64,000 bases of DNA, from assembly GCA_029547805.1 (NCBI GenBank), contig JAKPOP010000014.1:186001-250000 (forward strand). Direction: 5' to 3'. Every line of letters starts with the position of its first letter. Positions within the stretch are counted from its first letter, which is position 1. Shown here piece by piece: positions 26,123-29,847 of this stretch. Made by a program: the position numbers and the translations under genes. Under the pieces are notes generated by a model, which was not told the origin of the DNA, searched no databases, and saw nothing but the letters and a program-made list of their open reading frames with translations. Source of the stretch: Deltaproteobacteria bacterium. GTDB lineage: Bacteria > Myxococcota_A > UBA9042 > DTJE01.

Positions 26123-27316
26123 ATGATCCGCAAGGCCCTGATCGAACGGATCTTCGAGGGCTTCTCGATCCAGCGGTGGAACGACATGGCCCGGCCCATG
26201 GACCTGGTGGAGATGGACAAGCACGGCCACAAACTGGCGCTGGTCTGGCTGATCGCCCGGGAGGAGGAGGACCAGGGGCGGCCGGTCCACTGGACCCACC
26301 TGATCGAGGGGGCGATCTTCGAACTCTTCCGCCGGATCGCCATCGCCGACATCAAGGCGCCGATCCAGCGGGACATCCGCCGGCGTTCCCCCCAGGTGGC
26401 GGCCCGCCTGGACGAGTTCGCGATCCGGAACCTCGGCCCCCTGCTTCCCGACGAGGCCCTCCGGGTCCGGATGATGGAGTACCTGCGGCCTGACGGGGAC
26501 TTCGACCCCGGAGCCCGGCGGATCCTCGAGGGCGCCCATGCCCTGGCGACGCGGTGGGAATATCACCTGTTGCGTCCCCTCAACGGCATCACCCACCGGA
26601 TCGAGGAACTGGACCGGCTCATGGAGAGGGACCTGGAACCCCACCTGGAGGTCCCGGGGGTCCGGAGCCTGATCACTCGGGCTCCCCATGCGGGATTCGG
26701 CGACCTGGTGGCCCAGTTGCGCTTCCAGGTCCGGTGGAGCCAGACCCCCCGGGTGCCCCGGACCTCGGTCCTGGGCCACTCGATGTACGTCGCCGTGCTG
26801 ACCTTCTTGTTGCTCCGGGAGATGGGGGCCTGTCCCCGGCGGCTCCGAAACGGGGTCTTCGGGGCCCTCTTCCACGACCTGCCCGAGACCTTGACCCGGG
26901 ACATCCCCTCTCCGATCAAGGGGTCGGACCCGGGCCTCCAGGAGGTCATCGGCCAGATCGAGCGGACCCTCGTGGAGGAGCAGGTCTACCCGCTGCTGCC
27001 CGGGGCCTGGGCCGCCGAACTCCGCTACCTGCTGGAGGACGAGTTCGGCTCCCGGATCCGGCGGGACGGGGCGGTGCACCGCGTCTCGACGGACGAGATG
27101 CAGGCCCTCGGCAACGAGGACCGGTTCGACGGCTACGACGGGGAGGTCGTGAAGGTCTGTGATCACCTGGCGGCCTTCGTGGAGGCCCGGGTCTCCCTGG
27201 GGATGGGCATCCGCACTCCCCACCTGGAACACGGCGTGAACCATCTCCGGGCCCTCTACCAGGGGCGCACGCTGGCCGGCCTGGACCTGGGGGCCCTCTA
27301 CGCCGACTTCGGGTGA
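26123..27316 (+). CDS. HD-domain phosphohydrolase-like protein
   Basis: The protein is 397 residues. GGAGG lies before the ATG at 26123, and a TAGAAT -10-like box sits at 26087-26092. The C-terminal half (about 195-390) has the HD-superfamily pattern: H in TSVLGHSMYV, then LFHDLPETLTRDIPSPIK with the HD pair, and VVKVCDHLAAFVEA with a later Asp. This resembles YfbR-like 5'-nucleotidase / HD_3 domains, which hydrolyse phosphomonoesters or nucleotides with a metal. The N-terminal half (1-190) also contains DKHGHKLALVWLIA and may be a degenerate second copy. The substrate is unknown. It is divergent from the glyA operon and overlaps the convergent radical SAM gene by 19 bases. Confidence 0.8.
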   Translation: MIRKALIERIFEGFSIQRWNDMARPMDLVEMDKHGHKLALVWLIAREEEDQGRPVHWTHLIEGAIFELFRRIAIADIKAPIQRDIRRRSPQVAARLDEFAIRNLGPLLPDEALRVRMMEYLRPDGDFDPGARRILEGAHALATRWEYHLLRPLNGITHRIEELDRLMERDLEPHLEVPGVRSLITRAPHAGFGDLVAQLRFQVRWSQTPRVPRTSVLGHSMYVAVLTFLLLREMGACPRRLRNGVFGALFHDLPETLTRDIPSPIKGSDPGLQEVIGQIERTLVEEQVYPLLPGAWAAELRYLLEDEFGSRIRRDGAVHRVSTDEMQALGNEDRFDGYDGEVVKVCDHLAAFVEARVSLGMGIRTPHLEHGVNHLRALYQGRTLAGLDLGALYADFG

Positions 27317-28443
27317 GGGTCCGGCGGAAGGGTCTCGGCTTCTTTCGCCTGAAGGTAGAGGCAACGGGCGAAGTCACCCCCGGGGGCCGGATAGAGATGC
27401 AGGGCGCCGCCCCGGCACCAGGCCCAGTGGTCGCAGGTGGCGCAGGGGCCCTTCCGGGTCCAGGACCGGTCCCGGAAGACCTGGAAGCGCTGTTCCCAGA
27501 CGTCGCGCAGCCGCTCCCGGCGGATGTCCCCCTGGTGAAAGGCCGGGGGCAGTTCGGGGCAAGCCCCGATCCGGCCGTCGGCCATCACCCCGGCCACCTC
27601 GACGCCGGCCCGGCACTGGGCCAGGTAGGGCCGGACCCGCCCCTCGAAGCGCCAGCCCAGGAAGCCCTCCTCCGAGTGCTCCGGGACCGGGAGGCGGGGG
27701 TCCTGGCGGGCCCGGAGCACCCACTCCAGCAGCGCCCGCACCTCGGCGGGTCCCGGGACCAGGTCCGGCCGCTCCCGGGCCCGGCCGATGGGCATCACCG
27801 GGGCCACCCGCCACAGGGGGACCCGCATCCCCGCCAGCAGTCCCCGCATGCGGTCCAGGTGGGGGATCGCCGGTCGGGTCAGGGTCGAGAGGGCCTCCAG
27901 TTTCCCCTGGAAGCCCGCCTCCTGCAGCAGCCGGATGGCCCGGGATGCCTTCTCGAAGGCCCCGGGGCCTCGTTGGGCGTCGTTGACCTCCGGGGGGCCG
28001 TCCAGGCTCACCGAGACGGACCCCATCCCGACCCGGACCAGGGCCCGGGCCCAGGCGGCGTCCAGCAGCAGGCCATTCGTGACCATGCCGTAGGCGAAGC
28101 CCCGGTCCCGGAGGGCCTCGAAGACCCGGAGGATGTCCGGCTTCAGCAGCGGCTCGCCGCCGGTCACCGCCACCATCACGGTCCGGGGGTCGAAGTCCTG
28201 GGCCACCTGGTCCACCACCGCGACCCACTCCCCGGCATCCAGTTCCTGGCGGGGCCCGTCCCCTGTGCAGGAGGACCCGCAGTAGGCACAGGCCAGATTG
28301 CACCGGCGGGTCACCTCCAGGAAGAGATACCGGAGGGGGTGTTCCCGGGCCTTCTGGTCCAGCCGTTCGGCGTGGGCGCGCCAGGTGGCCAGGTACCGCT
28401 CCCGGGGGCTGCGGGGGTCCGGGGCGCCGGCGGGGTCGTCCAT
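27298..28443 (-). CDS. Radical SAM/SPASM-domain enzyme
   Basis: The protein is 381 residues. The radical SAM cluster motif TRRCNLACAYCGSSC gives C48, C52 and C55 (CX3CX2C). AVTGGEPLLKPDI is the SAM-binding GGE motif and SVSLDGPPEVND a conserved barrel strand. The C-terminal SPASM region (about 275-360) has CRAGVEVAGVMADGRIGACP, then GPCATCDHWAWCRGG, cysteines for auxiliary Fe-S clusters. SPASM enzymes typically modify ribosomal peptides or proteins, or mature other enzymes. The gene starts eight bases after the stop of a lipoprotein gene with repeated YGPxP motifs, making that lipoprotein the prime candidate substrate. This recalls the rSAM/lipoprotein systems described in Bacteroidetes. Confidence 0.85.
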   Translation of the reverse strand: MDDPAGAPDPRSPRERYLATWRAHAERLDQKAREHPLRYLFLEVTRRCNLACAYCGSSCTGDGPRQELDAGEWVAVVDQVAQDFDPRTVMVAVTGGEPLLKPDILRVFEALRDRGFAYGMVTNGLLLDAAWARALVRVGMGSVSVSLDGPPEVNDAQRGPGAFEKASRAIRLLQEAGFQGKLEALSTLTRPAIPHLDRMRGLLAGMRVPLWRVAPVMPIGRARERPDLVPGPAEVRALLEWVLRARQDPRLPVPEHSEEGFLGWRFEGRVRPYLAQCRAGVEVAGVMADGRIGACPELPPAFHQGDIRRERLRDVWEQRFQVFRDRSWTRKGPCATCDHWAWCRGGALHLYPAPGGDFARCLYLQAKEAETLPPDPHPKSA

Positions 28444-28451
28444 CGAGGCCC

Positions 28452-29210
28452 TCAGCGAGAGGGATTCGGGGGCGGGGGCCCGTAGAGGACCACGGGCACG
28501 CCGTCTTGCGACCCGTCGGCCGGTTCGGCGTCGGCCGCGTCCACCGACGGCAGGTCCTGGCCCTCCACCACGTCCTGCGAGGGGGTTCCCTCGGTGCAGA
28601 GATACCACTGGGACCCGGTGCAAGGGTCGGAGATGGGGTGGCTCTTGTCGCAGTAGTAGTTCTCGCCCCACCCCTTGCAGTCGTCGTCGCTGGTGCAGGG
28701 CGGCGGCCCGTAGGCCACCACCGGTTCGCAGTCCCGGGAGACGTCGGCCGGGAGGTCCGCCGGGACCACGTCCAGGGGCTCCACCGCGTCGCCCTGGCGG
28801 CAGAGGGGCCAGGTCACGCTCCCTCCGCAGGGGTCCGTGAAGACATTGGCGGTGTCGCAGTACCAGCCGGCGCCGTACCGTTGGCGGCAGTCTTCGTCCG
28901 TCTCGCAGGGCTGGGGCCCGTAGTAGGTCACCTGCGGGCAGTCGGTCGGGAGGTCCGTGCCGGAGATCTGGTCCACCAGGGCCCCGTCCGACGGGGAGGG
29001 GTCCGGGGCAGTCCCATCCGGCGCCACGGAGTCCTCGGGCGTCGAGGTCTCCACGACGTCCACCGGGGAGGAGGCATCCTCGCTGCCGGGGGCCAGGCAC
29101 CCGGCGGACCCGGCGAAGAGGCCCCCGGACAGCACCATCGAGACCCACCGGAAGAACCGGGCCAGGCCGCTTCGGCCCAGGTCGATCAGCGCCATCAGCA
29201 CCATCAGCAT
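28452..29210 (-). CDS. Lipoprotein with repeated YGPxP motifs; candidate radical SAM substrate
   Basis: The protein is 252 residues. The ATG at 29210 (MLMVLMALIDLGRSG) is preceded by GGGAGG at good spacing. A signal with lipobox SAGC gives lipid-anchored C38. An Asp/Pro-rich linker follows. Then come two homologous Cys modules: CPQVTYYGPQPCETDEDC...CDTANVFTDPC and CEPVVAYGPPPCTSDDDC...CDKSHPISDPC. The protein ends VPVVLYGPPPPNPSR, a third copy of the motif at the very C-terminus. The radical SAM/SPASM gene follows after eight bases. Repeated, conserved short motifs next to a dedicated rSAM enzyme suggest post-translational modification; this is inference. It is probably exported and outer-membrane anchored. 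Confidence 0.7.
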   Translation of the reverse strand: MLMVLMALIDLGRSGLARFFRWVSMVLSGGLFAGSAGCLAPGSEDASSPVDVVETSTPEDSVAPDGTAPDPSPSDGALVDQISGTDLPTDCPQVTYYGPQPCETDEDCRQRYGAGWYCDTANVFTDPCGGSVTWPLCRQGDAVEPLDVVPADLPADVSRDCEPVVAYGPPPCTSDDDCKGWGENYYCDKSHPISDPCTGSQWYLCTEGTPSQDVVEGQDLPSVDAADAEPADGSQDGVPVVLYGPPPPNPSR

Positions 29211-29271: not shown

Positions 29272-29847
29272 CTACCGGAGGTCTCCTGGACCCGTCGATT
29301 GCGGTGGCGGGGTCCCGTAGTCCCGGAACAGGGCCCGGTCCCGATCCCCGTCCCGGAGCCGCTTGTCGGCCAGGGCCTGGACGACCTCCGGCGGGAGCCT
29401 GGACAGGGCGTCCTTGTGCCGCAGGGGTGGGCGGTCCGGCTCCGGGTGAATCTCCAGCGCGTCACACAGCAGGATCACCCGGTCCCCCGAGTCCAGCCGA
29501 TCCACCACCACCAGTTCGGCGCTGCCGCAGGTCCCGGGGAGGCGGGGCAATCCCGAGGCGGTCCGCTCCCAGGGGATGCCGGAAAGCTTGTCCGGGCGGT
29601 CACGGGCCGACAGGAGCCCCAGGCGCGGCAGCAGGTCCTCCTGGCCCTCGGCCAGCAGGTGCAGCACCATCCGGCCGCTGCGCTGCACCAGGGAGAAGGT
29701 GTGGTTCCGTGGGGACATGGCCACCGCGACCCGCATCCGGTCCGGAACCAGCGTCACCGGGATCACCCAGGTGGCGATCTGGGCCCCGTCGCGACCCTCG
29801 GCCCGAGAACTGATGACGAAGACCTCGTGGTTGGTCAGGTGGAACAT
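29272..29847 (-). CDS. Flavin reductase-like protein with C-terminal YGTPPP
   Basis: The protein is 191 residues from ATG 29847, with GAGGAGG seven bases upstream. Residues 1-150 match the flavin-reductase-like (split-barrel FMN-binding) family: HEVFVISSRAEGRDGAQIAT, RMRVAVAMSPRNHTFSLV, SGRMVLHLLAEGQ and GSAELVVVDRL. Such proteins bind FMN and reduce flavin or other substrates with NAD(P)H. The tail is unusual: it ends RALFRDYGTPPPQSTGPGDLR, close to the YGPPP motif of the lipoprotein encoded 61 bases downstream. Whether this is coincidence is open. It sits between the flippase and the lipoprotein/radical SAM pair on one strand. Confidence 0.75.
   Translation of the reverse strand: MFHLTNHEVFVISSRAEGRDGAQIATWVIPVTLVPDRMRVAVAMSPRNHTFSLVQRSGRMVLHLLAEGQEDLLPRLGLLSARDRPDKLSGIPWERTASGLPRLPGTCGSAELVVVDRLDSGDRVILLCDALEIHPEPDRPPLRHKDALSRLPPEVVQALADKRLRDGDRDRALFRDYGTPPPQSTGPGDLR

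Follow-up and report, generated by a model that had tools for sequence, protein, structure and literature searches.

The PlpXY spliceases and their spliceotides (Morinaka 2018, cited in PMC10533398) are among the described systems closest to a two-gene locus found in a 64,000-nucleotide stretch of Myxococcota DNA (hereafter the window; contig JAKPOP010000014.1, positions 186,001 to 250,000), where a putative lipoprotein with repeated Tyr-Gly-Pro motifs is encoded beside a radical SAM (S-adenosylmethionine)/SPASM enzyme. PlpXY excises tyramine at X-Tyr-Gly and leaves an alpha-keto-beta-amino amide, has MYG and LYG as natural sites, acts on tags that include IRPLYGLPI and requires no leader (PMC10533398; PMC11002830); it also modifies whole proteins (PMC10533398). 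We propose, at a probability of roughly 60%, that the window pair is a lipoprotein splicease (i.e. a two-gene protein-splicing system), as judged from the sequence features presented below.

Like PlpXY, the window pair joins a SPASM enzyme to an X-Tyr-Gly site (in the systems compared often PLYG(V/L)P), but its enzyme belongs to a different SPASM family with a different cysteine pattern, PlpY is not adjacent, and neither a Nif11 or NHLP leader nor accompanying RiPP (ribosomally synthesized and post-translationally modified peptide) genes are present. With the TIGR04133/TIGR04134 families it shares the enzyme clade, an adjacent lipoprotein and YGxP in the partner; it differs from them in an enzyme that scores below the TIGR04133 cut-off, a lipoprotein without a TIGR04134 match, a motif that is repeated and C-terminal (rather than one copy behind the lipid Cys), and Cys modules in place of a carboxypeptidase-regulatory-like fold. 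Both families are listed as 'hypothetical equivalogs' of Bacteroidota (human gut included) and others, and the enzyme-lipoprotein pairing is already known as a database entry; the searched literature yielded no paper naming TIGR04133 and no published function. The anaerobic sulfatase-maturating enzyme (anSME), which converts Cys/Ser to formylglycine, also modifies a short motif within a whole protein, and is among the closest solved folds to the window enzyme (Z 26.9, 18% identity). DAG-RiPPs likewise have a short pathway in which a pre-lipoprotein is modified and then lipidated, but rely on an MNIO enzyme and other core motifs instead of a radical-SAM enzyme and Tyr-Gly; the text describing these MNIO-made lipoprotein-RiPP hybrids does not mention 'radical SAM' (PMC12636315). 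In the TVGG-repeat RiPPs a radical-SAM enzyme (TvgB, PMC9062424) also acts on a repeated short motif, with the differences that the motif is another one, the chemistry yields cyclopropylglycine, the precursor is small and the cluster larger.

The lipoprotein gene comes first on the minus strand and the enzyme gene follows after eight bases, just as the sequence-only reading had described. The features of the pair (window coordinates) are:

27298..28443, minus strand: radical SAM/SPASM enzyme, 381 aa, TIGR04133-like (open reading frame, ORF; NCBIfam and Pfam matches; AlphaFold model)
28267..28302, minus strand: radical-SAM cluster motif CX3CX2C-GSxC with extra Cys59 (enzyme alignment)
27415..27615, minus strand: SPASM cysteines C277, C295, C334, C337 and C343, CX12GX4C ... 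CX2CX5C (enzyme alignment)
28444..28451, no strand: intergenic gap, 8 bases (ORF coordinates)
28452..29210, minus strand: putative lipoprotein, 252 aa, proposed substrate (ORF, alignment)
29100..29210, minus strand: N-terminal region MLMVLMALIDLGR...RW..MVLSGGLF, conserved in partner lipoproteins of this bacterial family only, candidate recognition element (search of 13 genomes)
29097..29099, minus strand: Cys38, presumed lipidation site, invariant in alignment
28800..28940, minus strand: Cys module 1, C91-C137 (alignment)
28908..28922, minus strand: motif 1, YGPQP, X = Tyr (translation, genome pattern scan, alignment)
28596..28730, minus strand: Cys module 2, C161-C205 (alignment)
28698..28712, minus strand: motif 2, YGPPP, X = Ala (translation, genome pattern scan, alignment)
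28470..28484, minus strand: motif 3, C-terminal YGPPP, X = Leu (translation, genome pattern scan)

The lipoprotein extends from a hydrophobic N-terminal region, which ends at Cys38, through an acidic Pro/Asp/Val-rich linker and the two Cys modules to a terminal YGPPPP. Both the homologous modules, each opening with YGPxPC (YYGPQPC, residues 96-102; AYGPPPC, residues 166-172), and the third motif (LYGPPPP, 242-248 of 252; ten residues from the end) had been noticed in the sequence-only reading and were found in place. The two internal motifs and the Cys residues were invariant in five close homologues, and a fourth YG (in RYGAGWY) was not conserved. By scanning the source genome (a 4.08 Mb metagenome-assembled genome, with an 85% identical relative in the same genus) for the YGPxP DNA pattern, we recovered 27 occurrences, and the only cluster among them consisted of the three copies in the lipoprotein. 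A hydrophobic stretch and the invariant Cys38 precede and mark the putative lipid site, at which the protein may be anchored, but its lipobox (GSAGC) is non-canonical; an additional conserved hydrophobic stretch (MLMVLMALIDLGR) lies at the N-terminus. The protein had no significant Pfam match (the Cys modules gave weak WAP, EB and ACI44 hints, E 0.05-0.5, which were not used) and no NCBIfam match, TIGR04134 included, a model that found no match in the whole genome either; the structure model was poor (predicted local distance difference test, pLDDT, 53) and was left out of the fold searches.

The enzyme matched Radical_SAM (PF04055, E 6.5e-22, 78.9 bits) and SPASM (PF13186, E 3.7e-7, 30.8 bits) above their gathering scores, and its NCBIfam ranking was led by TIGR04133 ('rSAM_w_lipo', 303 bits, below the cut-off of 425), ahead of mycofactocin MftC (127.9) and TIGR04103 (121.7). 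In a tree that included plasmid-encoded enzymes of Treponema, Parabacteroides and Phocaeicola, which score 451-618 bits to the TIGR04133 model, it fell with its Myxococcota relatives into one clade with them (support 100/98). The family names TIGR04133/TIGR04134, which the sequence-only reading had given, were thus correct. The radical-SAM cysteines C48, C52 and C55 (CX3CX2C) are invariant, and the extra Cys59 (GSxC) occurs in 47/47 enzymes of this clade (hereafter the YG clade, after the motif of its partners), in 0/4 of an offshoot described below (AIAP-type) and in 0/11 PlpX-like enzymes. The SPASM CX2CX5C is kept, but the CX3C cysteine is absent from 46/47 YG-clade enzymes, which fall short of the seven-cysteine motif and carry an invariant G345/H349 in its place. 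The AlphaFold model (pLDDT 90.7) is nearest to SuiB, anSME, SkfB, ChlB and CteB (Z 25-27), all of which except anSME act on RiPP precursors; the predicted fold is the one typical of SPASM enzymes that modify peptides, and a single helix, not long enough to make up a complete recognition domain, precedes the barrel.

TIGR04133-like enzymes (E <= 1e-55) were present in 32 of 379 sampled Myxococcota genomes; together with other sources, 48 distinct enzymes entered a further tree. As three of these 48 were cut by contig ends and four fell into the AIAP subclade, 41 YG-clade loci were evaluable, and 35 of them had an adjacent YG-motif protein (mostly with a recognisable signal region), which lies upstream or downstream of the enzyme depending on the clade. 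The motif, usually repeated 2-9 times, was the sole feature common to the 35 partners, whose scaffolds are otherwise unrelated: Cys modules with YGPxPC (the window type), linkers rich in Asp/Val or Gly that carry YGP/YGV repeats, a different Cys-rich repeat containing YGMP/YGPP, two to seven KYGGPP behind a Tat-like (twin-arginine translocation) signal, KYGI repeats, YGIW repeats (x5), and TIGR04134-like proteins with a single YGxP or YGxx shortly after the lipid Cys. The suggestion that YGxP would be the most conserved part of the lipoprotein across genomes was therefore borne out, with two refinements: the invariant core is Tyr-Gly, mostly followed by a Pro no more than three residues on (131/160 YG in partners vs 1/34 in enzymes), and it coincides with the X-Tyr-Gly site at which known spliceases act. 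Pooling 34 partners gave 160 YG against a shuffle mean of 31.8 and a maximum of 51 (2000 shuffles). Flanking positions varied (-1 K/L/C/Y/E/M; +2 P/G/V/A/I/M; +3 P/Q/V/A/Y), the last YG lay 6-16 residues from the C-terminus in most repeat types, and the motif type clustered on the enzyme tree (17 changes vs a shuffled mean of 33). Judging by these patterns, the motif follows the enzyme, not the scaffold, which supports the earlier proposal that Tyr-Gly-Pro is the modified site of a surface lipoprotein; that Tyr-Gly is modified in the partner lipoproteins we consider highly probable.

The same motif is embedded in the database family. A lipoprotein with 32.8 bits to TIGR04134 contains YGVP, in which Ala substitution costs 5.4 bits at Y, 3.5 at G, 3.5 at P and 0 at x; the TIGR04134 model itself hence holds YGxP. 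In Bacteroidota and Spirochaetota, three TIGR04133 loci (Treponema, Parabacteroides, Phocaeicola) have one YGxP just behind the lipid Cys of their plasmid-encoded partners (SCYGMPENYY, CEYGSPHANF and CEYGTPSADY, respectively).

The sequences themselves show the pairing, the repeated motif and that it is conserved along with the enzyme; from these we infer the modification, its chemistry, the anchoring by lipid and the function as follows. The SPASM enzyme would recognise each X-Tyr-Gly-(Pro) in the new, unfolded pre-lipoprotein in the cytoplasm and modify it, most likely by a PlpXY-type reaction in which Tyr would lose a tyramine unit (C8H9NO, ~135 Da) by excision and the ends of the chain would be rejoined, so that each site would become an alpha-keto-beta-amino amide. 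The invariance of Y and G alone, with +1 to +3 variable, is as expected for chemistry confined to Tyr-Gly. The modified protein would then be exported and lipid-anchored, forming a surface stalk with several electrophilic ketoamide groups, possibly as a reactive linker or an anchored protease inhibitor, the latter being suggested by analogy because spliceotide products have been described as protease inhibitors (PMC11117315).

The splicease proposal draws on sites resembling those of PlpXY in the surveyed partners (KPLYGVPPD, RPLYGVQVD, QPLYGVPSK) and on TIGR04103, which, in view also of a Nostoc locus, we take to represent the PlpX family. At that locus, on a plasmid, an enzyme with 853 bits to TIGR04103 follows a Nif11 precursor ending in GSIALYGLPPELF (LYGLPPELF). 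TIGR04103-like (PlpX-like) enzymes were found in 145/379 Myxococcota genomes (up to 687 bits, all under the cut-off of 725). Of 20 loci inspected, at least 17 had XYGxP neighbours, mostly lipoprotein-like; in many of the neighbours at loci L136-L154 an N-terminal zinc-ribbon-like stretch (LxPCxxCxRHVRxxExxCPFCG) precedes a hydrophobic segment, a lipobox and XYGxP repeats. Because these loci also have XYGxP neighbours, two SPASM families appear to face the same kind of substrate, possibly by convergence or with a different reaction at the same XYG site.

Several observations weigh against a splicease. With 121.7 bits against a cut-off of 725, the window enzyme is outside TIGR04103, and the grouping of the TIGR04133 and PlpX clades as one had no support either way (approximately unbiased test, p 0.51). 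The CX3C SPASM cysteine, missing from the YG clade, is present in 9/11 PlpX-like enzymes, and the Cys behind the radical-SAM motif shows the reverse pattern. A PlpY-like gene was not among the neighbours of the window pair (no search for one elsewhere in the genome was made). Six YG-clade enzymes have no adjacent YG partner: five lack an adjacent lipoprotein, and one (L084 2736-3371, reverse complement of the locus, genome G242) has a YG-less lipoprotein with YPPPQPP followed by a TIGR04133 enzyme (486 bits). For three of the six, a YG lipoprotein is encoded at an unlinked site of their genome (L119 for two enzymes of G200, L121 for one of G302), and a contig-end case (G141) has unlinked ones as well (L126, L133); none was found in G155 and G237. 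Lastly, a subclade with 100/100 support (L073, L074, L075 and L079 = L040) has AIAPPFD repeats and no YG in 4/4 lipoproteins, the C-terminal part of which is Cys-rich. Loss of the motif beside a retained enzyme, which the sequence-only reading had named as refuting, was hence seen at these four loci and at L084; the AIAP-type enzymes have changed as well, having lost the GSxC cysteine, so that substrate motif and enzyme changed together.

The alternative that survives best, though we hold it unlikely, is that the enzyme modifies Tyr-Gly otherwise (by cross-linking Tyr to a neighbour, by oxidation at Tyr C-beta or Gly C-alpha, or by a step on Tyr like that of mycofactocin). The range of reactions among SPASM enzymes is wide, MftC ranks second among the NCBIfam matches, and the cysteine pattern is unlike that of PlpX-like enzymes; a side-chain cross-link is, however, disfavoured by the lack of an invariant partner residue at -1, +2 or +3, and the known spliceases use the same site. 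It is considerably less probable that YGxP is an unmodified structural or binding motif (e.g. a turn within a stalk rich in proline) and that the enzyme acts on cysteines (forming thioethers) or on a small molecule. The partners are indeed Pro-rich and extended, and the window lipoprotein contains a pair of Cys-rich modules, but in many partners (KYGGPP and YGP types) the lipid Cys is the only Cys while the YG repeats are kept, which led us to reject the thioether (sactipeptide) reading; moreover, YG tracks the enzyme over unrelated scaffolds and phyla, and where one subclade lost it, the enzyme changed too. A mere coincidence of gene order, which the five loci without an adjacent lipoprotein and the one with a YG-less lipoprotein might suggest, has practically no standing and is contradicted by the survey (35/41 adjacency, on either side of the enzyme by clade) and by seven other radical-SAM loci of the same genome, none of which had an ORF with at least two YG followed by Pro.

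Returning to the splicease proposal, we tentatively extend it, at somewhat less than even odds, to the whole TIGR04133 clade (gut Bacteroidota too), which may form a second splicease family producing membrane-anchored lipoproteins with up to nine alpha-keto-beta-amino acid sites each, its offshoot having switched from YG to Ile-Ala-Pro and hence to another reaction. Within the literature examined, what is new comprises the Myxococcota repeated-motif variants, the common YG core, the proposed splicease function and the switch to AIAP, with the restriction that a 2022 survey, mentioned in PMC10533398 as comprising 939 predicted splicease systems, may cover some of them. Linking the motif in TIGR04134 with the Tyr-Gly position on which spliceases act yields a concrete, testable prediction (~135 Da lost per YG). 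If the proposal holds, some bacterial surface lipoproteins carry numerous reactive ketoamides, and the natural switch from YG to AIAP, with its matching change of an enzyme cysteine, offers a handle on specificity.

A search of 13 genomes with the N-terminal region of the window lipoprotein gave 13 matches in nine genomes, all nine carrying a YG-type enzyme; 12 of the matches adjoin such an enzyme. In the form MLMVLMALIDLGR...RWLWL.LSGGLF, the region is common to partners from two distant enzyme clades within a single bacterial family and otherwise absent from the searched genomes except for one contig-end ORF; it may aid recognition or export. The remaining match (L100 / L110 4398-4925), at a contig end, is a lipoprotein with the same N-terminal region, EPEGELSFAPTPAP repeats and no YG. 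In genome G158, a pair of dissimilar YG lipoproteins that share this region comes after one enzyme, and G242 and G199 have YG lipoproteins in tandem. Among the tandem arrangements, L109 (1489-2098) has two YG lipoproteins of different builds with a shared N-terminal region behind one enzyme, and L083 (853-2742), from a genome assigned to the phylum of the window, has two TIGR04134 lipoproteins (EYGTPYA, AYGTPYT) upstream of a TIGR04133 enzyme.

A second SPASM gene ~38 kb off (C19:252325) had no YG partner, and scans of viral contigs, one using the enzyme and one using alignment A1, found no relative. The window pair is flanked by a flavin reductase-like gene and an HD-domain gene. The flavin reductase-like protein, encoded upstream (29272-29847), ends in DYGTPPPQ; its resemblance to the motif was taken as probably due to chance, an unlinked homologue having DFGTPKP.

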